In this document: positions 3,744-20,822 of the stretch, one piece after another
Position numbering within the stretch: the stretch's first letter is position 1
Layout: every line of letters begins with the position of its first letter
Translations under genes and position numbers: made by a program
Assembly: GCA_947476325.1 (NCBI GenBank)
Contig: CANJPZ010000004.1
Location: 62,001-126,000 of the forward strand
Length of the DNA stretch: 64,000 bases
Direction of reading: 5' to 3'
DNA from: Caulobacteraceae bacterium
GTDB lineage: Bacteria; Pseudomonadota; Alphaproteobacteria; Caulobacterales; Caulobacteraceae
Notes under the pieces: generated by a model
The model's database searches: none
Seen by the model: only the letters and a program-made list of their open reading frames with translations
What the model was told of the DNA's origin: nothing

Positions 3744-4670
3744 CTAGCCCCCAAAGCCGCCGCCGCCGCCGCGACGACCGCCGCCGCCCTGGGGCGCATC
3801 AAAGATGTTGCGGACCGTGCCGTCAGCGCTGGTCTGGTCTCCGCCCTTCTGGCCAGCCGGGCAGGCGCCGACATAGGAGGCCGTAACGCGGACCGTGGTT
3901 GAGGTGTCGCCGTTCTGGCCGCCCTTGGAGCTGGTTGTTCCGCTGATCGAGTAGCGGGTGTTCAGGTCGCCGGTCAGGGTCAGCTTGCTGGTGTTCTGGA
4001 CCGGATTGCCATTGCTGCTGGTCGTGCAGGCCGTGGCGGCCTGATAGCCGTTGTCGGTCTTGGTCAGCTTGGGCTCGCAACCCGCCGCCGCCGCCCCGCC
4101 GCGGCCTGTGAGACCGGAGAATACATTGCGGGTCTGTTCGGTTTCAGCCGTGACGCACAGCTTGACCGGTCCGGCAGGGGGACCGCCGCGACCGCCGCCG
4201 CCGGCAAAGCCGCCCGGTCCGCCGGGACCGCCGGGTCCGCGCTGACCGCCCCCGTTGGGTCCGCCTGCGGTGGGCGCGCCGCCGCCGGTCGGTGCTCCGC
4301 CTGCGTTGGGTCCGCGCTGGCCGCCGCCGTTCGGCGCGCCGCCGCCGGGCGCCCCGCCGGCGTTAGGGCCGCGCTGGCCTCCGCCGTTCGGTCCGCCACC
4401 GCGATTACCGCCGGTAAAGGTGCGTGTGGTGGTGATCTGCCACAGGCCGGCCTTGCGGACCGGCGCGCTGGCGGCGGTCACGGGCGTGCCATCAAGCTTG
4501 GGCGCCGGGGGCGGGGGAAGGGCGGGTGCGCCGGGCGTCGTGCCGGTGTCTTCACCTGCCAGGAGCGCGGGCGCATTTTTCCAGTTGGTCAGGCCCATCT
4601 GCTGACTTTCCTTCTTGCAGGCGGACAGACTAACGACGCACATCAGGGCGAGTGCGATGGACTTGCGCAT
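3744..4670 (-). CDS. DUF3617-type lipoprotein with Gly/Pro-rich repeat insertion
   Basis: 308 residues from the ATG at 4670. The lipobox 'VVSLSAC' gives a lipidated C18, so it is an envelope lipoprotein. The DUF3617 pattern is visible: 'VRKAGLWQITTT' near residue 71, then a C-terminal half with 'KLCVTAE', paired cysteines, 'GYQAATACTTSS' and 'GDLNTRYSISG'. Unlike the other family members here, residues 88-167 are replaced by a low-complexity Gly/Pro/Asn block with three near copies of 'PNGGGQRGPNAGGAP', then GGPGGP. The last residues are also Gly-rich. DUF3617 function is not established. It is one of four such genes within about 9 kb. Confidence 0.75.
   Translation of the reverse strand: MRKSIALALMCVVSLSACKKESQQMGLTNWKNAPALLAGEDTGTTPGAPALPPPPAPKLDGTPVTAASAPVRKAGLWQITTTRTFTGGNRGGGPNGGGQRGPNAGGAPGGGAPNGGGQRGPNAGGAPTGGGAPTAGGPNGGGQRGPGGPGGPGGFAGGGGRGGPPAGPVKLCVTAETEQTRNVFSGLTGRGGAAAAGCEPKLTKTDNGYQAATACTTSSNGNPVQNTSKLTLTGDLNTRYSISGTTSSKGGQNGDTSTTVRVTASYVGACPAGQKGGDQTSADGTVRNIFDAPQGGGGRRGGGGGFGG
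4170..4409 (-). repeat. In-frame Gly/Pro/Asn coding repeat
   Basis: A GC-rich imperfect tandem repeat inside the DUF3617 lipoprotein gene. Three copies of a roughly 45-base unit encode 'PNGGGQRGPNAGGAP' variants, followed by a GGP tract. It is slippage-prone and likely to vary in length between strains. Confidence 0.75.
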
Positions 4671-4782
4671 GAACCGGTCTCCGGATCGGGTGTTTAAGAC
4701 TTGCGGCCGGCGAAGAGCCGGCCGTTGGAACGACCGTCTAGCAGACTCTTGTTCGCTAACATGCCTGAATTGGGGCGGGATT

Positions 4783-5049
4783 GTGTTTGAAGACAACAAC
4801 CTGAAACATAGGTTCGAGTGGACCGAAAATGGCCTGACAGCTTTTGCAGCCTATGTGGAGCGAAACGGGGCCCTGGTTATTCCCCACGTGGAGGCGCCAG
4901 CCGCGCTACGGGGCACGGGCGCTGCGGGGCGACTTATGGAGGCCATCGCCATTCACGCCCGCAAGACAGCCGTCGGGATCGTGCCGACCTGCCCCTACGC
5001 CGTCGCGTGGTTCAAGCGACACCCCGACGCGCAGGACGTCCTGGCCTGA
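4783..5049 (+). CDS. GCN5-like N-acetyltransferase, small (YidJ/NATD1 type)
   Basis: Starting at the GTG at 4783, behind a GGGGCGGG stretch, this encodes 88 residues, the length of the single-domain Acetyltransf_CG family. The acetyl-CoA binding segment is seen as 'VPHVEAPAALRGTGAAGRL' (residues about 44-62), followed by 'IVPTCPYAVAWFKRHPDAQDVL', the conserved C-terminal 'P.C.Y...w...HPe' signature. The substrate is unknown. The open frame continues upstream to 4615, but that part runs antisense through the neighbouring lipoprotein gene and is unlikely to be coding. Confidence 0.8.
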   Translation: MFEDNNLKHRFEWTENGLTAFAAYVERNGALVIPHVEAPAALRGTGAAGRLMEAIAIHARKTAVGIVPTCPYAVAWFKRHPDAQDVLA

Positions 5050-5468: not shown

Positions 5469-5487
5469 GGGCTGGGTTTTTCAGCCC
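5469..5487 (-). terminator. Possible weak terminator after DUF3617 gene
   Basis: GGGCTG at 5469-5474 pairs with CAGCCC at 5482-5487, overlapping the stop codon of the minus-strand gene. A TTTTT tract appears about 15 bases past the stem on that strand. The stem is short and the T tract is displaced, so this is tentative. Confidence 0.3.
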
Positions 5488-6011
5488 TTACCTTTCATCG
5501 CGGAGCTGTCGATAATGCCCTGGGGCGTTTCGATGGCGCCGGGTTTCAGGTCGGCCGGGCAGACGCCGGAGATCCATTTTGCGTTCAGCGACACGCTTTC
5601 CGAGGTGTTGAGCTGGGCGTTCGCGGCGCCGCTGATGGTGGTCTGCAGGGTGACCGTATAGGCCGTGTTCGGATCGCCGCGCATCTCGCCACTCATGTGA
5701 ACCACGCCGCTGGCGCCCCGGTCACAGGTGGCCTCGATCGCCCACGAGCCATCCGGGCGCAAGGTCCGGCGGGCGTCCGAGCACTGGGAGGCGCCCAAAA
5801 CCGGCGCGCTGTGAGCGTCGTCTGAGCAGGTGCGCAAGGTCTGGGCGGGACTGCCGGAAACGGCGATCGTCAATTCCCAAAGGCCGTTGCGGACATGAGG
5901 CTCGGCCGGTACGGGCGCGGCGTCGGTCTTGCTGCTCGCGCCCTTGTCTCCGCAGGCGCCCAGGGCAAGCATGGAAACGGCCAGCGTCAGGCCTGTCATT
6001 AAACGTTTCAT
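5481..6011 (-). CDS. DUF3617 domain lipoprotein
   Basis: 176 residues from the ATG at 6011, preceded by GGAGGAAAGG. The signal peptide ends in the lipobox 'MLALGAC'. The DUF3617 core follows: 'VRNGLWELTIAVSG' at about residue 40, 'LRTCSDDA', 'SQCSDARRTLRPDGSW', 'EATCDRGASGVVHMSGEMRGDPNTAYTV' and the terminal 'AKWISGVCPADLKPG'. The four family cysteines are present. The role is unknown; the family is common in Caulobacterales and sphingomonads as secreted or lipidated proteins. The 'G.w...C......G' layout matches the copies at 9917-10354 and 12406-12990. Confidence 0.85.
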   Translation of the reverse strand: MKRLMTGLTLAVSMLALGACGDKGASSKTDAAPVPAEPHVRNGLWELTIAVSGSPAQTLRTCSDDAHSAPVLGASQCSDARRTLRPDGSWAIEATCDRGASGVVHMSGEMRGDPNTAYTVTLQTTISGAANAQLNTSESVSLNAKWISGVCPADLKPGAIETPQGIIDSSAMKGKG

Positions 6012-6233
6012 GATGGATCCTTTCCTCCCGCCGCCAGCGTGACCGCCGGTTGCTGAGCGTCGTTGCCCAAAGAGGCCCGATTCCGGCATGCGTCGCTACA
6101 AAATCAGATGCTCATGCGACAGATTTGTCGCCTGCGATGTCCCCGGCGTTGCGCAAAGCGGGAATTGAGACGATGATTCCCCCCAGGGTCCCGGCGCGAC
6201 ATGCCCGGACGTGGGGGCCCAGGGACAGGATGC

Positions 6234-7355
6234 ATGAAGCTTTCCCTTTTGCCGCTTGTGGCTGTCTTTCTGGCGATCTCGGCCCATGCCGCGGCGGCGG
6301 GCGACATGTCGTTCCGGCTGGCGACCACGGGCCGGCCTTGCGCCGACTGCCGCTGGATCGCCGCCGACGGTGAGATCACCGACCAGTCGCCCATCAGGCT
6401 GGCCAAGTTCCTCAAGGGCAAGACGGCGACCGAAGGCCTAGCGGTGCGGTTCAACTCCACCGGCGGCGACCTGGCCGCGTCGATCGCGCTGGGCCGCCTG
6501 ATCCGTGAGCGGGGACTGCGCACCGCGGTTTCAAAGACCGAGTATCTTCCGATCTCCAGAAAGGATCGGACGACCGCCCGCTTCACGAAAGGCGCCTGCG
6601 CCTCGGCCTGCACCTACGCCTATCTGGGCGGCGTGGAGCGCATCATCGATGAGAACTCCCGTCTGGGCGTGCACCAGTTCTACGCCGAGGCCACCCGCGG
6701 GCGCGGCTCGATCGCGGTTGCGCAATCAGCGATCAACGACCTCGGGATCTACATGGCCGACATGGGGGTGAGCGGAAATCTCATCCTGGCGGCCGCGGCC
6801 ACCGCGCCGGTCAACATGCACTGGCTGACGCGCGAGGAGCTGGAAACCTATCACGCGGTCACCGACGTGCGCGCGCCCCAGGAAGCGGACTGGAATTTCG
6901 CCCAGGCCGAGGGCGGGCTTTATCTGGTGAGCCGCCAGCTGCAGAAAAACGGATCGATCACCGAATACCGGGTCACCTGTCCGACCGCGCGGCCCGGCGC
7001 GGCCGCACGCTCCGGCGGCGTCATACATCTGGTCGCCAGCAGCCAGATCAAGTCAGCGCCGGCGGGGCGCGCCGCCGATGTCGGAAAGTCGGTTCACGGC
7101 GCCAAACTTCACCCGAGCGGTCGCCGGGGCGAGATCGACCTGGGCGATGTGCAGGTCAGCCAGGACCGCCTGAATGTGGCCGGCGATCTGGACCGTTCGG
7201 CGTTCCAACGCATGCTCGGCGAGCGCGGCGGCGAACTCTACATCGACCTTGATGTCTCCGCCGAGGTGGCCAGTTATGTGGGCGGCGCGACGCACAGATT
7301 TCCGCTGAAGAACCTGGGCGAGGCCATGCCGGTTCTGTACCGGAACTGCGCCTGA
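6234..7355 (+). CDS. Exported ClpP/crotonase-fold-like protein (COG3904-like)
   Basis: 373 residues starting at 6234 (AGGGACAGG ribosome site), with signal peptide 'LSLLPLVAVFLAISAHAAAA'. Residues about 75-190 look like the ClpP-like fold of the predicted periplasmic COG3904 group: 'LAVRFNSTGGDLAASIALGRLIRERGLRTAV', then 'GACASACTYAYLGGVERII' with a serine at the nucleophile position, and 'SRLGVHQFY'. The His-containing strand 'GVHQF' completes the usual pattern. The remaining 180 residues form an unrecognised C-terminal domain. The stop overlaps the ATG of the next hydrolase by one base (TGATG), so the two genes are an operon. Confidence 0.75.
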   Translation: MKLSLLPLVAVFLAISAHAAAAGDMSFRLATTGRPCADCRWIAADGEITDQSPIRLAKFLKGKTATEGLAVRFNSTGGDLAASIALGRLIRERGLRTAVSKTEYLPISRKDRTTARFTKGACASACTYAYLGGVERIIDENSRLGVHQFYAEATRGRGSIAVAQSAINDLGIYMADMGVSGNLILAAAATAPVNMHWLTREELETYHAVTDVRAPQEADWNFAQAEGGLYLVSRQLQKNGSITEYRVTCPTARPGAAARSGGVIHLVASSQIKSAPAGRAADVGKSVHGAKLHPSGRRGEIDLGDVQVSQDRLNVAGDLDRSAFQRMLGERGGELYIDLDVSAEVASYVGGATHRFPLKNLGEAMPVLYRNCA

Positions 7356-8161
7356 TGCGTGCGGGTCTGAGGGGTGCAGCGACTGCGCTGGTGATGCTGA
7401 TCAGCGCATGTGCAACCACACCGGCGTCGTTGCAGGACTATTTCGTGCCTGGCCGGTACACGGTGGTGTCCCGCGCTGAGGGGCCAGACTGTACGGTCTT
7501 CCGGCCCGAGTCCCTGAGCGGCAAGCATCCGATCATCCTTTGGGGCAATGGCACGGTCTCCAAAGTCCCGGCCTACACACCCCTGCTAAGCCACTGGGCC
7601 AGCCAGGGTTTTGTGGTGGCGGCGGCCAACACCAACAGCGCCGGATCCGGCGCGCCGCTACTGGCCTGCCTCGATTACCTGACCCAACAAAACGCCGCAG
7701 CGGGGAGCGTTTTCAGGAACCATCTGGACCTGTCCAGGGTGGGCGCCAGCGGTCACAGCCAGGGTGGCGGCGGCACGATCATGGCCGCCCGCGATCCGCG
7801 CATTACGGCGACCGCGCCGATCGAGGCCTATACCCTGGGCCTGGGCTATGTGCGTGGCGCCGAGGCCGGCCAGCACGGAACCATGCTGCTGTTGTCGGGC
7901 GGGCTCGATACGACCGCCGTTCCGGCCCGCAACCAGAAGCCCGTGTTCGACGCCGCCAATACGCCGGTGTTCTGGGCGACGCTGAAGGCCGCCGATCATG
8001 CGGTTCCGGCCACAGGAACCTCGGGCGCCTTCCGCCCGGCCACGACGGCCTGGTTCCGCTGGAAGCTGATGGGCGACAAGCAGGCTGGCCGCTGGTTTGA
8101 AGGCCCTGAATGCCTTCTCTGCAAGTCCGCGGACTGGACGATACAAAGGCGCGGTGGGTAG
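7355..8161 (+). CDS. Cutinase/PET-hydrolase-like alpha/beta hydrolase, lipoprotein
   Basis: 268 residues. The lipobox 'LISAC' (C19) places it in the envelope. The order of motifs follows bacterial cutinases and PET hydrolases: 'ILWGNGT' oxyanion strand, nucleophile S135 in 'GHSQGGGG', acid D185 in 'SGGLDTTAVP', base H215 in 'AADHAVP', and a C-terminal Cys pair (C253, C256) in 'CLLC', like the terminal disulfide of those enzymes. Q replaces the usual Met after the serine. Paralogs lie at 10461-11378 and 11462-12352. It is coupled to the upstream ClpP-like gene. Esterase activity is likely; polyester as substrate is inference. Confidence 0.83.
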   Translation: MRAGLRGAATALVMLISACATTPASLQDYFVPGRYTVVSRAEGPDCTVFRPESLSGKHPIILWGNGTVSKVPAYTPLLSHWASQGFVVAAANTNSAGSGAPLLACLDYLTQQNAAAGSVFRNHLDLSRVGASGHSQGGGGTIMAARDPRITATAPIEAYTLGLGYVRGAEAGQHGTMLLLSGGLDTTAVPARNQKPVFDAANTPVFWATLKAADHAVPATGTSGAFRPATTAWFRWKLMGDKQAGRWFEGPECLLCKSADWTIQRRGG

Positions 8162-8186
8162 AAGGCCTCAGCCAGTGAGGAACGCC

Positions 8187-9236
8187 ATGACCGATATCGC
8201 CACCGTCCGGGAAACCATACTCGAGCCGGACCTGCCGATTGTCGATCCGCACCATCATCTGTGGGACTCAACCGCCGCCCAGCGCGCCGCCGCGCCGCCG
8301 CCGACCCACGGCTTCACCAAGGTCACCAGCCGGGCGCCGCGCTATCTGCTGGATGAGCTGCTGGCCGACTTGAACAGCGGCCACAGGATCGTCTCAACGG
8401 TCTATCTGCAATGCGGATCCTTCTACCGGTCTGATGGTCCCGCCCACATGCGACCGGTCGGCGAGACCGAGTTCGTCAACGGCGTGGCGGCCATGACCGC
8501 CAGTGGACTGTATGGGCCGGTGCGCGCCTGCGCCGGCATCATGGGCCACGCCGACCTGACGCTGGGCGATGCGGTGAGCGAAACGCTCGAAGGCCATCTG
8601 GCGGCGGCTCCGGCCCGGTTTCGCGGCATCCGCCACAGCGCCTCCTGGGACGCCGATCCGGAGGTGCTGGGGCCCCTGAATCGCAACAAGCAGGGTCTCT
8701 ACGTCGCCGATGCATTCCGAGAGGGGTTCTCGAAGCTGGCGCCGCTGGGTCTGTCGTTCGACGCCTGGCTGCTGGAGCCGCAGCTGCCGGACCTGATCGA
8801 CCTGGCGCGAGCCTTTCCCGACACGCCGATTACGCTTGACCACGTCGGCACGCCCCTGGGTCTGGCCAGCTATGCTGGAAGGCGGGACGAAAGGTTTGGC
8901 GTGTGGCGCGACAACATTCGCGAACTGGCCAGATCGCCCCTGGTCAGCGTCAAGCTGGGCGGCCTGGCCATGGTGTTCTGCAATTTTCCCTCATTCCTCA
9001 GCGATCCGGCCGCGCCTTCGACCCAGCTGGCAGCTGAATGGAAGCCCTATATCGAGGCCTGTATCGAGGCTTTCGGGGTCGAGCGCTGCATGTTCGAGAG
9101 CAACTTTCCGGTGGACCGGGGCGCCTGCGACTACGCCACCCTGTGGAATGCCTTCAAGCGGATCGCTGCCGGATATTCGGCGGATGAAAAGACCGCCCTG
9201 TTCAGTGGCACGGCGTCTCGCGTCTACCGCCTATAG
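8187..9236 (+). CDS. Amidohydrolase family 2 (2-pyrone-4,6-dicarboxylate hydrolase-like)
   Basis: 349 residues from the ATG at 8187. The TIM-barrel amidohydrolase-2 signature 'IVDPHHHLWD' is at residues about 16-25, 'GIRHS' and 'LDHVGTPLG' lie in later strands, and 'MFESNFPVDR' near the C-terminus carries the catalytic aspartate region. Family members hydrolyse lactones or decarboxylate aromatic acids. There is no signal peptide, so it is cytoplasmic. Its last 13 bases overlap the 3' end of the convergent methyltransferase gene. Specific substrate unknown. Confidence 0.87.
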   Translation: MTDIATVRETILEPDLPIVDPHHHLWDSTAAQRAAAPPPTHGFTKVTSRAPRYLLDELLADLNSGHRIVSTVYLQCGSFYRSDGPAHMRPVGETEFVNGVAAMTASGLYGPVRACAGIMGHADLTLGDAVSETLEGHLAAAPARFRGIRHSASWDADPEVLGPLNRNKQGLYVADAFREGFSKLAPLGLSFDAWLLEPQLPDLIDLARAFPDTPITLDHVGTPLGLASYAGRRDERFGVWRDNIRELARSPLVSVKLGGLAMVFCNFPSFLSDPAAPSTQLAAEWKPYIEACIEAFGVERCMFESNFPVDRGACDYATLWNAFKRIAAGYSADEKTALFSGTASRVYRL

Positions 9237-9856
9237 CGCTTGATATAGGCCTTGATGTCCCAGGCCTGGCCCTTTTCGTTGACCAGGCGGCTGGAGAAGT
9301 CGGGCTTGTGGTCGTTCTCGAACCGGCTCCAGTTGGCGCGGTTGCGGGCGTCGTAGTCGCAGATCGAGACAACGCAGACACCGCCCTGCGGCAGGCCCGC
9401 CCAGTATTTGCGGAACGTCACGCCCGGGTCTTTGGCGTAGGTCAGGGTCTCGTTGAAGATGATGACATTGTGGGGCTGGTCCGGCGTATAGGCGTCGAAG
9501 TCGGCGACGAGAAAGCGTGATTTCGGATAGCCATGCTCCGACGAGAGCCGCACCGCCTCCTTCGATATGTCCAGGCCCGTGTAGTCCTCAAGGTCGCCGT
9601 CGGCGAAAAAGGTGCGCATCACGCCCGTTCCCGAGCCGACATCCAGGACCGAGTAGGGACCAGATGCGCAACGGACGGCGTAGTTGTGGATCAGCGCGTA
9701 ACGGGCGGATTCAGAAACGTCGGCCAGGAAGGCCCAGCGGCCGGCGGCGAAATCACGATCCCAGACCTCGACCGGCGGCGGATTGCCAAACCCGCGCGGC
9801 GCGAGCCAGAGGCGGTCGTAAAGACGCGCCGCGATGTGCCGTGGGCTGAGTTTCAT
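9224..9856 (-). CDS. Class I SAM-dependent methyltransferase
   Basis: 210 residues with SAM-binding motif I 'VLDVGSGTGVMRTFF' at about residue 70, acidic motif 'YTGLDISKEAV', and a post-motif 'NVIIFNETLTYAKDPG'. Known to be a methyltransferase-11/25 type fold; the substrate cannot be assigned. Soluble, with no signal peptide. The N-terminal 'RHIAARLYDRLW' is basic and amphipathic. It is convergent with the amidohydrolase gene. Confidence 0.85.
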   Translation of the reverse strand: MKLSPRHIAARLYDRLWLAPRGFGNPPPVEVWDRDFAAGRWAFLADVSESARYALIHNYAVRCASGPYSVLDVGSGTGVMRTFFADGDLEDYTGLDISKEAVRLSSEHGYPKSRFLVADFDAYTPDQPHNVIIFNETLTYAKDPGVTFRKYWAGLPQGGVCVVSICDYDARNRANWSRFENDHKPDFSSRLVNEKGQAWDIKAYIKRYRR

Positions 9857-9916
9857 GAAACGGCGCGCCTCAGTTCCGGTGAGGGATGGTGGATAGCAGG
9901 CTGACCCGCGGGTTGG

Positions 9917-10354
9917 TCAAGGCTTTCCAGGCTTTGGGCAGGGCCCCTGATAAGCGCCGGTCACCGTCGCCACGATATCGGCCGTGGACGAACGGACCTC
10001 GCCCCGGACTCGAAAGGACCGGATGAAATCGCCCGAGACGTTGGCCGTTATGGTCATGTCGCCAAAACCGCGATTGTGACAAACCGTCCTCGAGGTCCAG
10101 TCTCCCCGCATGCCTCGCTCGTGTTCGTCGACGTAACAGTCGGGCCCGGCCTTTACCCGATAGTAGGGCAGGGTGATCCTCTGGGAACGATCGACACAGA
10201 TCAGGTTCGCGCGGTCCGGCAAGTCCAGCGGCGGGCTGGCAAGCTGACTGACACTCTCGATCGTCTCGAGCCAGAGCCCGGGCGTGGCTTGCGGATCGGG
10301 CGAGGACGTACAGGCGGCAAGGGCGAGCACCGGAACCAACCAGCCAGACCGCAT
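9917..10354 (-). CDS. DUF3617-like small lipoprotein
   Basis: 145 residues with lipobox 'ALAAC' at C15. It is shorter than the other DUF3617 copies but shares the 'PGLWLETIESV' opening, an early Cys ('ANLICVDRSQ'), 'GDWTSRTVCHNRGFGDMTITANVSGDF' and a last Cys in 'AYQGPCPKPGKP'. Envelope lipoprotein of unknown function. It is divergent from the polyesterase-like gene at 10461, with a 106-base spacer. Confidence 0.68.
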   Translation of the reverse strand: MRSGWLVPVLALAACTSSPDPQATPGLWLETIESVSQLASPPLDLPDRANLICVDRSQRITLPYYRVKAGPDCYVDEHERGMRGDWTSRTVCHNRGFGDMTITANVSGDFIRSFRVRGEVRSSTADIVATVTGAYQGPCPKPGKP

Positions 10355-10460
10355 TCAGACGCCCCCCTTTTGCCCTTGTGTCCAAGTTTGACGACAAGCG
10401 TGACCGCAAGCGATAGTCGGGCGGAAAAATAATGCAATTGCCGGATGGAGACTGTGTTCA

Positions 10461-11378
10461 ATGGCTCGAAAAACCATGTCCGGAGCGACAGTTGCCGTCG
10501 CGGCCCTGTCGATGGCGCTTGGCGTCGCGGCCGCCTGGGCCCAGCAGCCTTCTGCGGCGACAGCGCCCGCTGGCGCCCAGCCCGCAGCTGCGCCGGCCCG
10601 GGCCGCCCGCCCGCCCGAGCCGCCGGCCGGCATGTCGCCGGCGTTGGCGGAGTACGATCACGACGGGCCGCTAAAGACCATGGGCCATCTGGAGGGCCCG
10701 AACTGCACCATCTTCCGGCCCGATTCCCTGACCGGCAAGTCGCCGATCGTGCTGTGGGGCAATGGCACCGGCCAGACCCCGGTCCGGTACGCCGCCATGC
10801 TGAACCAGATGGCGACCTACGGCTTTGTCGTCGCCGCCGCCAACACGACCAACCCTGGCAACGCCACCGAGATGCTGGCCTGCCTCGACTATCTGACCGC
10901 CGAGAACGGCCGCGCGGGCAGCCCCTATGAAGGCAAGCTGGATCTGACAAGGGTAGGAGCCAGCGGTCACTCCCAGGGCGGTGGCGGCGCGATCATGGCC
11001 GGCCGGGATCCCCGTGTGAAAACGACTGCGCCGATCATGCCCTACACCCTGCGGCTGGGCTATATCGCCGGCGCCCAGACCCAGCAGCACGGACCGATGT
11101 TCATGACTTCGGGCGGCAATGACACCATCGCCCGTCCGTCTGAAAACCAGCAGCCGGTGTTTGAACAGGTCAATACGCCGATCGTCTGGGCGACCCTTGC
11201 GAACGCCAGCCACCTTGTGCCGATGCAGCCGGACTCCGGACCCTACCGGCCGGCGGTGATCGCCTGGTTCCGCTACCAGCTGATGGGCGACAAGGTCGCC
11301 GGCGCGCTGTTCACGTCGAATATCTGCGGGCTTTGCACGGCGCCGGACTGGACCATCCAGAAGAGGGGCCTGCAGTAG
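10461..11378 (+). CDS. Cutinase/PET-hydrolase-like secreted alpha/beta hydrolase
   Basis: 305 residues with a Sec signal peptide ending near 'AAAWAQQ', then an Ala/Pro linker to about residue 58. Core motifs: 'IVLWGNGTG' oxyanion region, S171 in 'GHSQGGGG', D221 in 'SGGNDTIARP', H251 in 'NASHLVP', and terminal Cys pair C289/C292 in 'CGLC'. These match the copies at 7355 and 11462 in order and spacing. Unlike the 7355 copy it is secreted rather than lipidated. It starts after a GGAG site. Extracellular or periplasmic ester hydrolysis is likely; the substrate is not proven. Confidence 0.85.
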   Translation: MARKTMSGATVAVAALSMALGVAAAWAQQPSAATAPAGAQPAAAPARAARPPEPPAGMSPALAEYDHDGPLKTMGHLEGPNCTIFRPDSLTGKSPIVLWGNGTGQTPVRYAAMLNQMATYGFVVAAANTTNPGNATEMLACLDYLTAENGRAGSPYEGKLDLTRVGASGHSQGGGGAIMAGRDPRVKTTAPIMPYTLRLGYIAGAQTQQHGPMFMTSGGNDTIARPSENQQPVFEQVNTPIVWATLANASHLVPMQPDSGPYRPAVIAWFRYQLMGDKVAGALFTSNICGLCTAPDWTIQKRGLQ

Positions 11379-11461
11379 TCCTGTCAGTCCCAAGACAAGC
11401 GTGGCCGATCGCGTTATGGTGCGGCCAATAACAAGAACCCCGCGGACGGAGGACCGCAATC

Positions 11462-12352
11462 ATGAACAGCAAGACCCTGAAGACGCTCGCCCTGACGGCC
11501 GCCGCCGCCGCCCTGATGATGGCCGCCGGCGCCGCCATCGCCCAACCGCCCGCCGCGCCTGCCGCCGCGCCCGCAGCGCCCCCTGCGCCGCCGCCGGCCC
11601 TGATGCCGATCTCGCCGGTGCTGGACGCCTACAACAAGGCCGGTCCGAACAAGACCGTCCACGCCGCCGAAGGCCCTGACTGCACGGTCTACCGTCCCGA
11701 AACACTCGCCGCCAGGACCCCCATTGTCCTGTGGTCCAACGGCCGCGGCCAGACCCCTGACAAGTACGGAACCATGCTCGACCAGCTGGCCAGCCAGGGC
11801 ATCGTCGTGGCGGCCGCCAATTCGGGCAACGCCGGCGCCGGCGTCGAGGTTCTGGCCTGCCTGGATTATCTGACCACCCAGAACACCACCGCGGGCAGCG
11901 CCTATATGGGCAAGCTTGACCTGACCAGGGTCGGAGCCGCCGGCCACAGCCAGGGCGGTGGCGGTACGATCATGGCCGGCAAGGACGCGCGCATCAAAAC
12001 CACCGCGCCGATCATGCCCTATACGGCGGCCGGTCTCGGCTTCGTGTCGGGTGCGCAAGCCGAGCAAAAGGGCCCGATGCTGCTGATCTCGGGCGGCGCC
12101 GACCGAACCGCCCCGCCGGCCACCCACCAGAAGCCGGTGTTTGACAGCGCCAATGTTCAGGTCTTCTGGGGCACGATCGCCAACGCGGTCCACGCCCTGC
12201 CGGCGACCGGCGATTCCGGCGAGGTTCGCCCGCTGGTCATAGCCTGGATGCGCGCCCAGTTGCTGGGCGACCGAACGGCCGCAGCCCTGTTCAATGGCCC
12301 GACCTGTGGCCTGTGTTCAGTTCCCGAGCTGGCGATCCAGCGCAAGAACTAG
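11462..12352 (+). CDS. Cutinase/PET-hydrolase-like secreted alpha/beta hydrolase
   Basis: 296 residues. The signal peptide ends at 'AAIAQ' and an Ala/Pro-rich linker follows. The triad positions are S163 in 'GHSQGGGG', D214 in 'SGGADRTAPP' and H244 in 'NAVHALP', with Cys pair C282/C285 in 'CGLC'. It lies only 83 bases behind its closest relative (10461-11378), in the same orientation, with its own GGAGG ribosome site, so it is a tandem duplicate. 'WSNGRG' replaces 'WGNGTG' in the oxyanion strand, a possible specificity difference. Confidence 0.85.
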   Translation: MNSKTLKTLALTAAAAALMMAAGAAIAQPPAAPAAAPAAPPAPPPALMPISPVLDAYNKAGPNKTVHAAEGPDCTVYRPETLAARTPIVLWSNGRGQTPDKYGTMLDQLASQGIVVAAANSGNAGAGVEVLACLDYLTTQNTTAGSAYMGKLDLTRVGAAGHSQGGGGTIMAGKDARIKTTAPIMPYTAAGLGFVSGAQAEQKGPMLLISGGADRTAPPATHQKPVFDSANVQVFWGTIANAVHALPATGDSGEVRPLVIAWMRAQLLGDRTAAALFNGPTCGLCSVPELAIQRKN

Positions 12353-12405: not shown

Positions 12406-12990
12406 CTATTTCGGCGGTGGCGGCGCGCCTGTTCCCGTCGTCATGTTGATCTTCATCCCGCCCGGCATGACCATGTCGCCCGGCTTGACGTCCGGCGGAC
12501 ATTCGCCCGTCCATTTGGCGGTCATCGTCATGGTGGTGGCCCGGTTCATCTGAGGCACCGCCGCGCCGGTCGTCTCCGACTGGATGTTCATCGTGTATTC
12601 GGAATTGAAGTCGCCGGTGATCTCACCCGAGCTCTTGACGATGCCGCCGGTGCCCAGGTTGCAGGTCGAGTGGAAGGTCATCTTGCCATCAAGACCGCGC
12701 TGGAACGAGTTTTCCGAGCACTGGCTTGCGCTGGTCTGGCTGCCCATGGCCGACATTGTGGCCGCTGTCGCCGCGTCTAGGCACATGGACATGGTCACAG
12801 GTTTCGAACCCGCGGCGGTCATGGTCTGCTGCCAGTAGCCTGACTTTCGCAAAGGCATGGTCGTGGCCGAAGCCGCAGGCGCGGCGGCTTCGCTTCCGGT
12901 CTTGGTGTTGGCGGCTCCGTCCTTGCCGCCGCAGGCGACCAGGGTCAGGGCGGTGGCGGACAAGGCCAGGCTCATGGCGATGCGATTCAT
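12406..12990 (-). CDS. DUF3617 domain lipoprotein
   Basis: 194 residues with lipobox 'LTLVAC' (C20). The DUF3617 core: 'LRKSGYWQQTMTAAG' at about residue 47, 'MSMCLDAAT', 'SASQCSENSFQRGLDGKMTFHSTCNLG', 'SSGEITGDFNSEYTMN', and 'AKWTGECPPDVKPGDMVMPGG'. It ends in a Pro-rich tail. Convergent with the polyesterase-like gene at 11462. Function unknown, as for the rest of the family; the fourth of the cluster. Confidence 0.87.
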   Translation of the reverse strand: MNRIAMSLALSATALTLVACGGKDGAANTKTGSEAAAPAASATTMPLRKSGYWQQTMTAAGSKPVTMSMCLDAATAATMSAMGSQTSASQCSENSFQRGLDGKMTFHSTCNLGTGGIVKSSGEITGDFNSEYTMNIQSETTGAAVPQMNRATTMTMTAKWTGECPPDVKPGDMVMPGGMKINMTTGTGAPPPPK

Positions 12991-13124: not shown

Positions 13125-14145
<1,021 letters not shown>

Positions 14146-16284: not shown

Positions 16285-16509
16285 GTGACCTTTCAGGCCT
16301 ATCTCGACAACATTCAGGCCAAGACTCGCAAGACCCCTGCCGACTTCAGGGCCATGGCGGATGACAAGGGTTTCACGGAAGGCAGTGGGATCAAGCCGGG
16401 CATCAAGGCCGGTCAGATTGTCCAGTGGCTCAAGGATGATTTCGGTCTGGGCCACGGCCACGCCATGGCGATTTTTACATTGCTCAAGGGCGGCCATCCC
16501 GGGCCCTAG
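16285..16509 (+). CDS. DUF4287 domain protein
   Basis: 74 residues starting with GTG. The full DUF4287 pattern is visible: 'FQAYLDNIQAKTRKTPADF', 'GIKAGQIVQWLKDDFGLGHGHAMAIF', and a basic-free end. It is a small helical protein widespread in bacteria, often near DUF5655 or transport proteins; function unknown. Its TAG stop is shared with the stop of the convergent haloalkane dehalogenase through the palindrome CTAG. Confidence 0.85.
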   Translation: MTFQAYLDNIQAKTRKTPADFRAMADDKGFTEGSGIKPGIKAGQIVQWLKDDFGLGHGHAMAIFTLLKGGHPGP

Positions 16510-17426
16510 GCAGCGGGCAGATCGCCCCAGGCCGCAAGCGCCGCCCGGGCCAGAGGCTCGCCATGTTCCTGGACAAAGTGTCCGACGCCTTCGAGCATCA
16601 AAGGCTCGGGGCATCCGTGGATGGACTGTCGAACCTGGGTCATGACCGGTGGGCCCAGCACGGGATCAGCGACGCCGACGCCCATGAAGCTCTGACCGCG
16701 GAACTCATTGCGCCACCAGGTCTGGGCCGCCTTGCCTATGGTCATGACCGCTTCGTCGGCGCCCTGGCCGCGGACGGGCACAAGCTGGGGGAAACGTCGC
16801 ACGCCGGCCTTGTACGAGGCGTCAGGGAAGGGCGCGTCATAGGCGGCCGCCTCGGCCTCGCTCATCGACGGATCGCTGCGCTGCATCAGGGCGCCCACCC
16901 CCATGTCCGGCGTGCGGGCCACATAGTCGCGCCAGGCCAGAAAGCCGGGCGTGGGCTCGGCGCCGGTCGGAAAGGCGGTGTTCATGATCAGAAGCCGCGC
17001 AAAGCGCCCGGGCTCGCTGACGGGCAGGGTCAGGCCCAGCAGGCCACCCCAGTCCTGAACCACCAGGGTGACGTTGGTCAGATCAAGGCGGCGTATCAGG
17101 GCCAGCAGGTAGTCGCGGTGAAAAGCAAAAGTGTAGGCGGCATCGTCCACGGGCTTGTCAGACCGGCCAAACCCGAAGAAGTCGGGCGCAATGACGCGGG
17201 CTCCACTTTGCAGGAACACAGGAATCATCTTGCGGAACAGATAGGCCCAGCTCGGTTCACCGTGCAGGCAAAGGAAAGTGTGCACCGCATCGCGCGGGCC
17301 TTCGTCGATAAAGTGGGCGCGCAGGCCCTCATAGCCCGGCAGATCATCGACATAGTGCGGCGCGTAGGGCCAGCCGGGCAGATCATTGAATCGCGTATCC
17401 GGCGTGCGCAGGGCCTTGAGAGTCAT
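16506..17426 (-). CDS. Haloalkane dehalogenase (HLD-I, DhlA-like)
   Basis: 306 residues, close to DhlA length. Catalytic residues are all recognisable: nucleophile D125 and halide-binding W126 in 'VVQDWGG', second halide tryptophan W165 in 'GFLAWRDYV', D254 in 'VGVADPV', and H283 in 'EGVGHFVQEHGEP'. The 'LCLHGEPSWAYLFR' oxyanion motif and 'APDFFGFGRSDKP' are diagnostic. D254 as the acid places it in subfamily I. It hydrolyses carbon-halogen bonds to alcohol plus halide in the cytoplasm. The ATG at 17426 gives the normal N-terminus; a longer open frame exists. Real substrate unknown. Confidence 0.93.
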   Translation of the reverse strand: MTLKALRTPDTRFNDLPGWPYAPHYVDDLPGYEGLRAHFIDEGPRDAVHTFLCLHGEPSWAYLFRKMIPVFLQSGARVIAPDFFGFGRSDKPVDDAAYTFAFHRDYLLALIRRLDLTNVTLVVQDWGGLLGLTLPVSEPGRFARLLIMNTAFPTGAEPTPGFLAWRDYVARTPDMGVGALMQRSDPSMSEAEAAAYDAPFPDASYKAGVRRFPQLVPVRGQGADEAVMTIGKAAQTWWRNEFRGQSFMGVGVADPVLGPPVMTQVRQSIHGCPEPLMLEGVGHFVQEHGEPLARAALAAWGDLPAA

Positions 17427-17548
17427 GGGTAGTCTCCGTTCGTGGGGCCAGTTTATCGGGCTCGAACCGGGTCGGACGCAAGCCTGACAAATTTGTGAGG
17501 ATCGGCCAGGCTGGCTGACAAGGCCGGAAGGCATGGTGCCCGATATGG

Positions 17549-19712: not shown

Positions 19713-20822
19713 TCAGCCGATCGCTGCTGCGATCTCGCGGTGCAGCCGGGTCAGCGCGCCTTCGAACAGGCCGAAGGTCAGAACCGCATTGGCCCCCGAG
19801 GTCAGGCCCTTTTGCACGGCTGAGACCACCATGCGGTCCTCGGCCGCGCCGGCGGCGACGAAGGCGCGGCTGATGTCGACCCGCTTCTGGTCCTCGGCGC
19901 TGTCCTTCGCATTGGTCAGAATGAAGGTCTCCATGCGCGAGCGGCCGGGCGAGAGGGGCTCGACGATGGTGATCTTGTGGGTCTTGGGAAAGGTCGAGAT
20001 GACCACATTGGGAAACAGGTGCCAGACGCTGGTCAGCACGCCAGGCGCCCGCCACGTCTCGCGCGGCGCATCGCGCAGCCGCTCGATGGACTGGTAGGGG
20101 AAGGTCACGCGATTGCCCCGCCCGAAGGCCTCGATGACATTCAGGTTGTCGTACTGCCTGGGATAGAAGGTCTCGGCGTGGGTCGAGCGGATGTGATAGC
20201 CCTCGAGAAACCCCTCGCAGATCAGTTTCCAGTTGGCCTCCATCTCGATGACGTCATGGGCGATCAGGCGGTGGTCCGGGCTGATCAACCCCTCCATCTG
20301 GGTCAGCGCCGGGTCCGGTTCGGCCTCGCCGTCCTGGGTGACAAAGATCAGGCCGTAACGCTCAATGCATCCCACCGGGACCAGACCGTGGGCGTCCTTG
20401 TCCAGGCCGGGAAAGCCGTACTCGTCAGGCACGCCGCGCAGTGTTCCGTCGAGATTGTAGGTCCAGGCATGATAGCGGCAGGTCAGCACCTTCCTGCAGC
20501 CGGCGCCCTCGGCCACCTGCATCCCGCGATGACGGCACGCGTTTCGGAAGCCCCGGACCACCCCGTCGTTTCCTCGCACGGCGACGATCGGTGCGCCACC
20601 GGCCTCGCGCGCCAGATAGGCGCCGGGTTCACTCAGCGCCGCCGCCGGGCAGAACGGCGTGGCGGTGCGGCGAAAAACGCAGGCCAGTTCTGCATCGAGG
20701 CGTTCAGGCGAGAAATAATGCTCCACCGGCTCATGCCAGACGCTGTCGGCCAGATCGGTGGTCTTGCCGTCGATATGCGCCAGCACGCGGTCAATCAGGG
20801 CCTGTTCGTCGAGCAGCGGCAT
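19713..20822 (-). CDS. Rieske-type aromatic ring-hydroxylating oxygenase, alpha subunit
   Basis: 369 residues. Rieske [2Fe-2S] ligands: C96 and H98 in 'NACRHRGM', C115 and H118 in 'LTCRYHAW'. The catalytic mononuclear iron motif is 'EGFLEGYHIRSTH' (His-x4-His), with a downstream acidic ligand expected. The substrate could be an aromatic acid, a quaternary amine or a sterol-like compound; the short alpha-only arrangement without a beta subunit nearby fits several groups. Reductase and ferredoxin genes are not adjacent. Cytoplasmic, with no signal peptide. Confidence 0.9.
   Translation of the reverse strand: MPLLDEQALIDRVLAHIDGKTTDLADSVWHEPVEHYFSPERLDAELACVFRRTATPFCPAAALSEPGAYLAREAGGAPIVAVRGNDGVVRGFRNACRHRGMQVAEGAGCRKVLTCRYHAWTYNLDGTLRGVPDEYGFPGLDKDAHGLVPVGCIERYGLIFVTQDGEAEPDPALTQMEGLISPDHRLIAHDVIEMEANWKLICEGFLEGYHIRSTHAETFYPRQYDNLNVIEAFGRGNRVTFPYQSIERLRDAPRETWRAPGVLTSVWHLFPNVVISTFPKTHKITIVEPLSPGRSRMETFILTNAKDSAEDQKRVDISRAFVAAGAAEDRMVVSAVQKGLTSGANAVLTFGLFEGALTRLHREIAAAIG

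Follow-up and report, generated by a model that had tools for sequence, protein, structure and literature searches.

Three cutinase-like genes within 5 kb

The window analysed here is a stretch of 64,000 nucleotides from a Caulobacteraceae bacterium (GenBank assembly GCA_947476325.1, contig CANJPZ010000004.1, positions 62,001 to 126,000 of the forward strand). It carries three paralogous genes for cutinase-like hydrolases, here called P1, P2 and P3. An earlier note on this DNA had described them as three paralogs in 5 kb resembling cutinases and hydrolases of poly(ethylene terephthalate) (PET), and possibly forming a new group of polyesterases.

7355..8161, + strand, 268 amino acids: P1, cutinase-like alpha/beta hydrolase, predicted lipoprotein
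10461..11378, + strand, 305 amino acids: P2, cutinase-like hydrolase, probably secreted
11462..12352, + strand, 296 amino acids: P3, cutinase-like hydrolase, probably secreted

All three open reading frames (ORFs) are intact and lie where the earlier note had placed them. The pairwise identity of the proteins is 54–57%, and P2 and P3 stand in tandem with 83 nt between them. The sequence GGNCAYNNNCARGGNGGNGG, which encodes GHSQGGGG, is found in frame on the + strand at 7751, 10965 and 11942, so that the motif is indeed common to the three ORFs. Shuffled sequence yields a mean of 0.01 matches, which puts the window count far beyond chance. One further match, on the − strand at 11505 and antisense to P3, looks accidental.

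The Asp and His that had been seen at matching places fall, together with the Ser of GHSQG, into alignment columns common to all three proteins (S135/D185/H215 in P1, S171/D221/H251 in P2 and S163/D214/H244 in P3). The terminal Cys pair was likewise recovered in each (253/256, 289/292 and 282/285 in P1, P2 and P3, respectively), but a second conserved pair had been overlooked (46/105, 82/141 and 74/133). Cys46-Cys105 and Cys253-Cys256 of P1 and their equivalents in P2 and P3 are putative disulfides.

The assignment of one lipoprotein and two secreted tandem proteins also stands: P1 carries the lipobox motif ISAC, whose Cys is residue 19 (motif only), and the N-termini of P2 and P3 are signal-peptide-like as judged by eye. 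The putative lipid anchor of P1 looks like a local trait, because in a motif scan of 118 family matches, repeat fetches included, a lipobox was found only in P1 and in a Myxococcales member (locus L087), and because the ortholog of P1 in a second Caulobacteraceae genome, the metagenome-assembled genome (MAG) L011, lacks the lipobox Cys.

Family assignment and predicted folds

All three proteins match the Pfam family PF12740 ‘PETase’ (53.2 bits for P1, 59.6 for P2 and 62.8 for P3; curated cut-off 28), a broad family whose profile also scored above cut-off in 4 of 14 control genomes. The nearest solved chains are 2fx5 (the lipase/cutinase of Pseudomonas mendocina, PmC), 9hl5 (HaloPETase1), 9w68 (‘PETase’) and 9k0h (dsPETase05), with E-values of 6.9e-80 to 1.4e-73 for P2, 2.3e-75 to 3.0e-75 for P1 and 6.1e-67 to 9.4e-67 for P3. 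The next solved chain for P2 is a variant of LCC at 6.7e-18.

AlphaFold2 models were obtained with a mean predicted local distance difference test score of 90.8 for P1 (35 sequences) and 90.9 for P3 (46 sequences). Superimposed on 2fx5, 9k0h and 9hl5, the two models gave Z scores of 40.8–41.7 and root mean square deviations (RMSD) of 0.9–1.5 Å over 240–246 residues, the values for PmC being 41.7 with P3 and 41.3 with P1. Entries of LCC, PHL7 and IsPETase were far more distant (Z about 30–31, RMSD 2.1–2.5 Å), and a Foldseek search with P3 agreed with this ranking. The description of the proteins as cutinase/PET-hydrolase-like is thus borne out by the PF12740 scores and by the superpositions, and PETase-type architecture is present in both models at the level of the overall fold.

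With PmC, to which they are 48–52% identical, the window proteins have in common the GHSQGGGG motif, the NG strand, the triad, both Cys pairs and the loop 3 region. They differ at two positions: the catalytic His is followed by Phe in PmC but by Ala, Leu and Ala in P1, P2 and P3, and the Thr that follows GNG in PmC is Arg in P3. The marine enzymes HaloPETase1 (47–49% identity) and dsPETase05 likewise carry the GHSQG box, the cysteines of both disulfide sites, a Tyr in subsite I, a position 88 without an aromatic clamp residue and an extended loop 3; both keep the subsite II Phe that is replaced in the window proteins. R75estA from Stutzerimonas sp. R75 has the same markers by the description given in its paper (PMC13396203), not by a comparison of sequences, and a Stutzerimonas homolog (L058) is 44–48% identical to P1–P3 and to a fourth paralog of the window genome (see below). 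LCC, IsPETase and PE-H, which represent the type I/II PETases, share the alpha/beta-hydrolase polyesterase fold, PE-H being matched by Foldseek, at about 20–27% identity. According to Turak et al. 2025 (PMC12442448), enzymes of these types have a GHSMG or GWSMG box, an aromatic clamp and other disulfides.

For HaloPETase1-4, PmC and dsPETase05, the same authors proposed the name type III PETases. The markers they describe are the GHSQG box, the disulfides C64-C126 and C273-C276 and a five-residue insertion in loop 3. The aromatic clamp is lacking, Thr88 and Tyr180 standing in its place, and the oxyanion amides are contributed by Thr88 and Gln157. Thr88, Gln157 and Tyr180 of subsite I are described as strictly conserved in Halopseudomonas homologs, and HaloPETase1 is reported to degrade PET (PMC12442448). 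Ruginescu et al. 2026 (PMC13396203) added R75estA, for which p-nitrophenyl esters, olive oil, polycaprolactone, bis(2-hydroxyethyl) terephthalate and PET microparticles are given as substrates. Characterised members named in the two papers belong to Pseudomonas, Halopseudomonas or Stutzerimonas or were recovered from marine metagenomes, and our literature searches on the family together with Caulobacteraceae, Caulobacterales or Alphaproteobacteria found no report of a member from the Caulobacteraceae.

Conservation of the active site

Site-by-site conservation was read from an alignment of 101 rows, in the numbering of HaloPETase1 (triad S156/D206/H236). Repeat fetches, represented by other rows, had been removed from it (L001-L004, L006-L008, L010, L090, L092-L094 and window ORFs), as had three exact duplicates. 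Asp206 and His236 are found in 101 of 101 rows and the catalytic Ser in 100. Gln157 is also present in 100 rows, a figure that is partly by construction because one of the homolog scan patterns held GHSQG. Cys273 and Cys276 occur in every row, Cys64 in 92 and Cys126 in 95, and each of P1, P2 and P3 holds Cys at all four positions. Types I and II are defined by Met after the catalytic Ser and an aromatic clamp of Tyr/Phe and Trp (PMC12442448). The three proteins are set apart from them by Gln after the Ser and by clamp positions that hold Tyr and either Thr or Arg.

Two positions of the substrate site depart from the family pattern. Thr88 is present in 96/101 rows; P3 has Arg here and its L011 ortholog (L011_4879) Asn. 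Subsite I is therefore complete in P1 (Thr67, Gln136, Tyr159) and P2 (Thr103, Gln172, Tyr195) and incomplete in P3, where Arg95 replaces the conserved Thr. In subsite II, His155 is found in all three window proteins and Phe237 in none. This Phe, present in 85/101 rows, is replaced by Ala216 in P1, Leu252 in P2 and Ala245 in P3, and by Ser, Leu and Ala in the respective L011 orthologs, while the fourth paralog retains it. We take the loss of Phe237 to be a trait of the triplet lineage, since the window triplet and its L011 orthologs are all without the Phe. The Leu of P2 should not be read as a sign of lost function, because Leu at this place is reported to improve dsPETase05: a change of the Phe to Lys, Ile or Leu reportedly raises activity (Zhang et al. 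2025, second-hand from PMC13396203). The columns of the loop 3 insertion, GLGHN in HaloPETase1, are occupied by GLGYV, RLGYI and GLGFV. The His is absent from all three, and in P3 the GLGF is preceded by one extra residue.

On their sequences, P1–P3 are accordingly members of the PmC or ‘type III PETase’ sequence family. We do not count them as type III PETases proper, because two markers differ, the Phe in all three proteins and the Thr in P3.

A divergent member was seen in the Myxococcales (L087:3441-4487). It reads GHDQGANG, with Asp in place of the catalytic Ser, has Val for Thr88, Arg for Phe237 and the lipobox already mentioned, and retains Asp206 and His236. It is possibly an enzyme with an Asp nucleophile or else a dead one.

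Phylogeny, orthologs and selection

Of 266 confirmed stretches in genome_contigs, the best 80 were used as homologs (79 loci, with flanks of up to 6 kb). These 80 come mainly from Pseudomonas, Halopseudomonas and Stutzerimonas, and for the remainder from Alcanivorax, Marinobacter, Ectothiorhodospiraceae, Hyphomonadaceae, Caulobacteraceae, Myxococcota, Spirochaetota and Actinomycetota. A first tree was built from all 101 rows, for which the program warned of long branches. A second used 67 of them, leaving out 23 close or partial copies and 11 long-branched or far rows, which included L041, L009 and the fourth paralog. The window proteins branch with other alphaproteobacterial rows in both (10 rows, support 95/81, in the first; 9 rows, 99/92, in the second). 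Two more Caulobacterales rows, L041 from the Caulobacteraceae and L009 from the host genus, were placed outside this branch by the first tree, with a join of their own at 96/72. The branching is thus partly unsure, the second tree, built without these two, being no test of their place.

P1, P2 and P3 each pair with one gene of the L011 MAG at 100% ultrafast bootstrap in both trees. This one-to-one pairing indicates that the duplications most likely preceded the split of the window species from the L011 species. On a single strand, L011 has the order putative exported protein, P1, an extra gene of 465 amino acids, amidohydrolase, P3, P2; the window has P2 ahead of P3, and between this pair and the genes for P1 and the amidohydrolase lie two genes on the minus strand. 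The order of the P2/P3 pair is reversed between the two loci (window 10461-12352, L011:4912-6759), and the pairs are still clearly orthologous.

The ratios of nonsynonymous to synonymous substitutions (dN/dS, Nei-Gojobori) of the three ortholog pairs were 0.235/0.93, 0.259/0.82 and 0.279/0.82, or about 0.25–0.34, with proportions of differing nonsynonymous (pN) and synonymous (pS) sites of 0.20–0.23 and 0.50–0.53. P1–P3 are under purifying selection.

A triplet is not unique to the window, as shown by other multi-copy loci: 10 of the 79 loci hold at least two family ORFs, 7 of these hold three (one copy in L042 being partial), and 8 of the 10 are from Pseudomonas or Halopseudomonas. Apart from those of L011, their copies do not group with the window copies in either tree. 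In L013, L014, L015, L016, L023 and L029, from Pseudomonas and Halopseudomonas, three genes of the PmC family form an array; these arrays stand apart from the Caulobacteraceae triplet in the trees.

Distribution and further copies

At a cut-off of 1e-40, with at most 8 and 6 first-look candidates scored per genome in the order and class samples, the family was found in 3/3 genomes of the host genus (window genome included), in 3 of 149 genomes of the family-level sample (all of the host genus), in 3 of 299 of the order sample, one of these being a far relative without GHSQG (L091, 3e-41), and in 1 of 385 of the class sample, which is the window's own. The family is rare in the Alphaproteobacteria as sampled.

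The fourth paralog is more distant and maps to another part of the window genome (G000:C2:211601-212377; L004:1492-2331, − strand). It has GHSQGANG and lacks the usual Tyr-Thr and loop 3 residues. PF12740 gave a fifth match, on contig 34, at 29.2 bits with a cut-off of 28, and two further matches under the cut-off.

Genomic neighbourhood

Four genes stand beside or between the hydrolase genes:

6201..7355, + strand: putatively exported protein; ClpP-like similarity weak, below cut-off
8187..9236, + strand: amidohydrolase family 2 (PF04909), beginning 25 nt after P1
9224..9856, − strand: methyltransferase between P1 and P2
9917..10354, − strand: small putative lipoprotein (LAAC, by eye)

The stop codon of the first overlaps the start of P1 (TGATG), and a homolog of this gene also precedes the P1 ortholog in L011. 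The L011 cluster retains a homolog of the amidohydrolase that is 83% identical. Neither minus-strand gene had a match at E 1e-8 within the fetched L011 locus, and the small putative lipoprotein had no Pfam or NCBIfam match at E 0.1. The idea that the amidohydrolase might be a LigI-like lactonase of the protocatechuate pathway was not supported by PDB or NCBIfam matches: its single PDB match at E 0.001 is 4dlf, an Amidohydrolase 2 (9e-13), and it reaches 68 bits with the NCBIfam L-fuconolactonase model, far under the cut-off of 400. We leave the protein unassigned beyond its family.

Three DUF3617 (PF12276) proteins surround the cluster (5481-6089, 12406-12990 and 3744-4799, all − strand); relatives flank the L011 cluster on either side, and in L009 they lie next to the family gene. 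Further along, 13125-13427 (−) encodes a small putative lipoprotein with collagen-like triplet repeats, and 16506-17534 (−) an alpha/beta hydrolase of the haloalkane dehalogenase family (NF002043, above cut-off) with a close homolog in L011.

We also considered terephthalate catabolism nearby, through the Rieske oxygenase alpha subunit at 19713-20822 (−); the matches did not support it. The best PDB match is carnitine monooxygenase at 1e-28, as against 1.4e-16 for terephthalate dioxygenase, and no NCBIfam cut-off was passed. In the whole genome, PF00848 at E 1e-5 matched this gene alone, so that no PF00848 oxygenase of the terephthalate dioxygenase kind is present; other terephthalate genes and MHETase were not searched for. 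One match to polyhydroxyalkanoate synthase (PF07167) in the genome has no bearing on the substrate.

Discussion

The family profile, solved relatives, predicted folds, triads and purifying selection together make it probable that P1–P3 are intact exported serine ester hydrolases of the PmC or ‘type III PETase’ sequence family, and most likely they would act as cutinase-like esterases of broad specificity. The catalytic triad and the acyl-enzyme mechanism are established for the alpha/beta-hydrolase fold. By homology, the His-Asp pair would activate the Ser of GHSQG for attack on the ester carbonyl. The oxyanion hole would be formed by two backbone amides, one from the Gln following the Ser and the other from the residue that follows GNG, which is Thr in P1 and P2 but Arg in P3; the resulting acyl-enzyme would then be hydrolysed by water. 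P1 would probably be lipid-anchored at the membrane and P2 and P3 released, and the two putative disulfides, far from the active site, may stabilise the fold after export. Insoluble or bulky esters, such as cutin- or suberin-like polyesters, lipids or aliphatic polyesters, probably fit the open groove. Plant polyesters, lipids or aliphatic polyesters appear likelier as native substrates than PET. Activity on PET may be possible, but a natural role in its use seems unlikely, because the sole PF00848 oxygenase resembles carnitine monooxygenase more closely than it does terephthalate dioxygenase.

Several points weigh against this assignment. P1–P3 differ from the characterised enzymes at two conserved subsite positions, with Ala, Leu and Ala for Phe237 and, in P3, Arg for Thr88, so that the transfer of substrates by homology is uncertain. 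The function of P1–P3 is an argument from homology, and the predicted fold covers P1 and P3 only.

It is possible, though the less favoured reading, that P1–P3 are ordinary lipases or small-ester carboxylesterases of the same fold that cleave no polymer to a useful extent. 2fx5 was itself deposited as a lipase, R75estA also cuts olive oil and p-nitrophenyl esters (PMC13396203), and both the missing Phe after the His and the missing Thr of P3 would fit such enzymes, as would a sole PF00848 oxygenase that is not terephthalate-dioxygenase-like. On the other hand, PmC, HaloPETase1-4, dsPETase05 and R75estA are all reported to be active on polyesters (PMC12442448, PMC13396203), and loss of the Phe need not harm, given the Lys, Ile and Leu changes of dsPETase05 (second-hand in PMC13396203) and the natural Leu of P2.

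More doubtful is a specialisation of P3, in which Arg95 at subsite I and the oxyanion hole would select a different, perhaps anionic substrate, for example acid-ended oligomers released by P1 and P2. The rarity of anything other than Thr at this position speaks for it, as does the survival of the P3 pair as a lineage of its own, with purifying selection at a dN/dS of about 0.34. Yet the oxyanion hole would use a backbone amide, so that the side chain may matter little, and the Arg is absent from the P3 ortholog, which has Asn. A full division of labour, with P1 as an anchored polyesterase, P2 released and fitted with Leu in subsite II, P3 using Arg95 on acid-ended oligomers and the products passing to the amidohydrolase, would be improbable, although in such a scheme the natural Leu of P2 matches the change reported to improve dsPETase05.

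That the proteins form a new polyesterase group apart from all known PET hydrolases, as the earlier note proposed, we consider highly improbable. The separate alphaproteobacterial branch and the identities of 47–52% to PmC and HaloPETase1 could be cited in its favour. But Gln after the Ser and the GNG strand, which the note cited as distinguishing, are already present in 2fx5 and 9hl5, as is the C-terminal Cys pair; the GHSQG box and the disulfides are among the published type III markers (PMC12442448, PMC13396203), and Z scores and identity place P1–P3 with type III. Decaying or redundant duplicates without function, which the close packing of paralogs in one genome might suggest, are hardly credible in view of intact ORFs, complete triads and pN well below pS.

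P1–P3 are thus ordinary, well-conserved members of a known family and no new kind of enzyme. What is new is modest: an alphaproteobacterial branch, a triplet whose members each have a single ortholog in a second species, and natural substitutions in the subsites. Such a branch, with natural changes at the mutagenised positions Phe237 and Thr88, widens the sequence space of polyesterases, and the substitutions are ready test cases for work on these enzymes.

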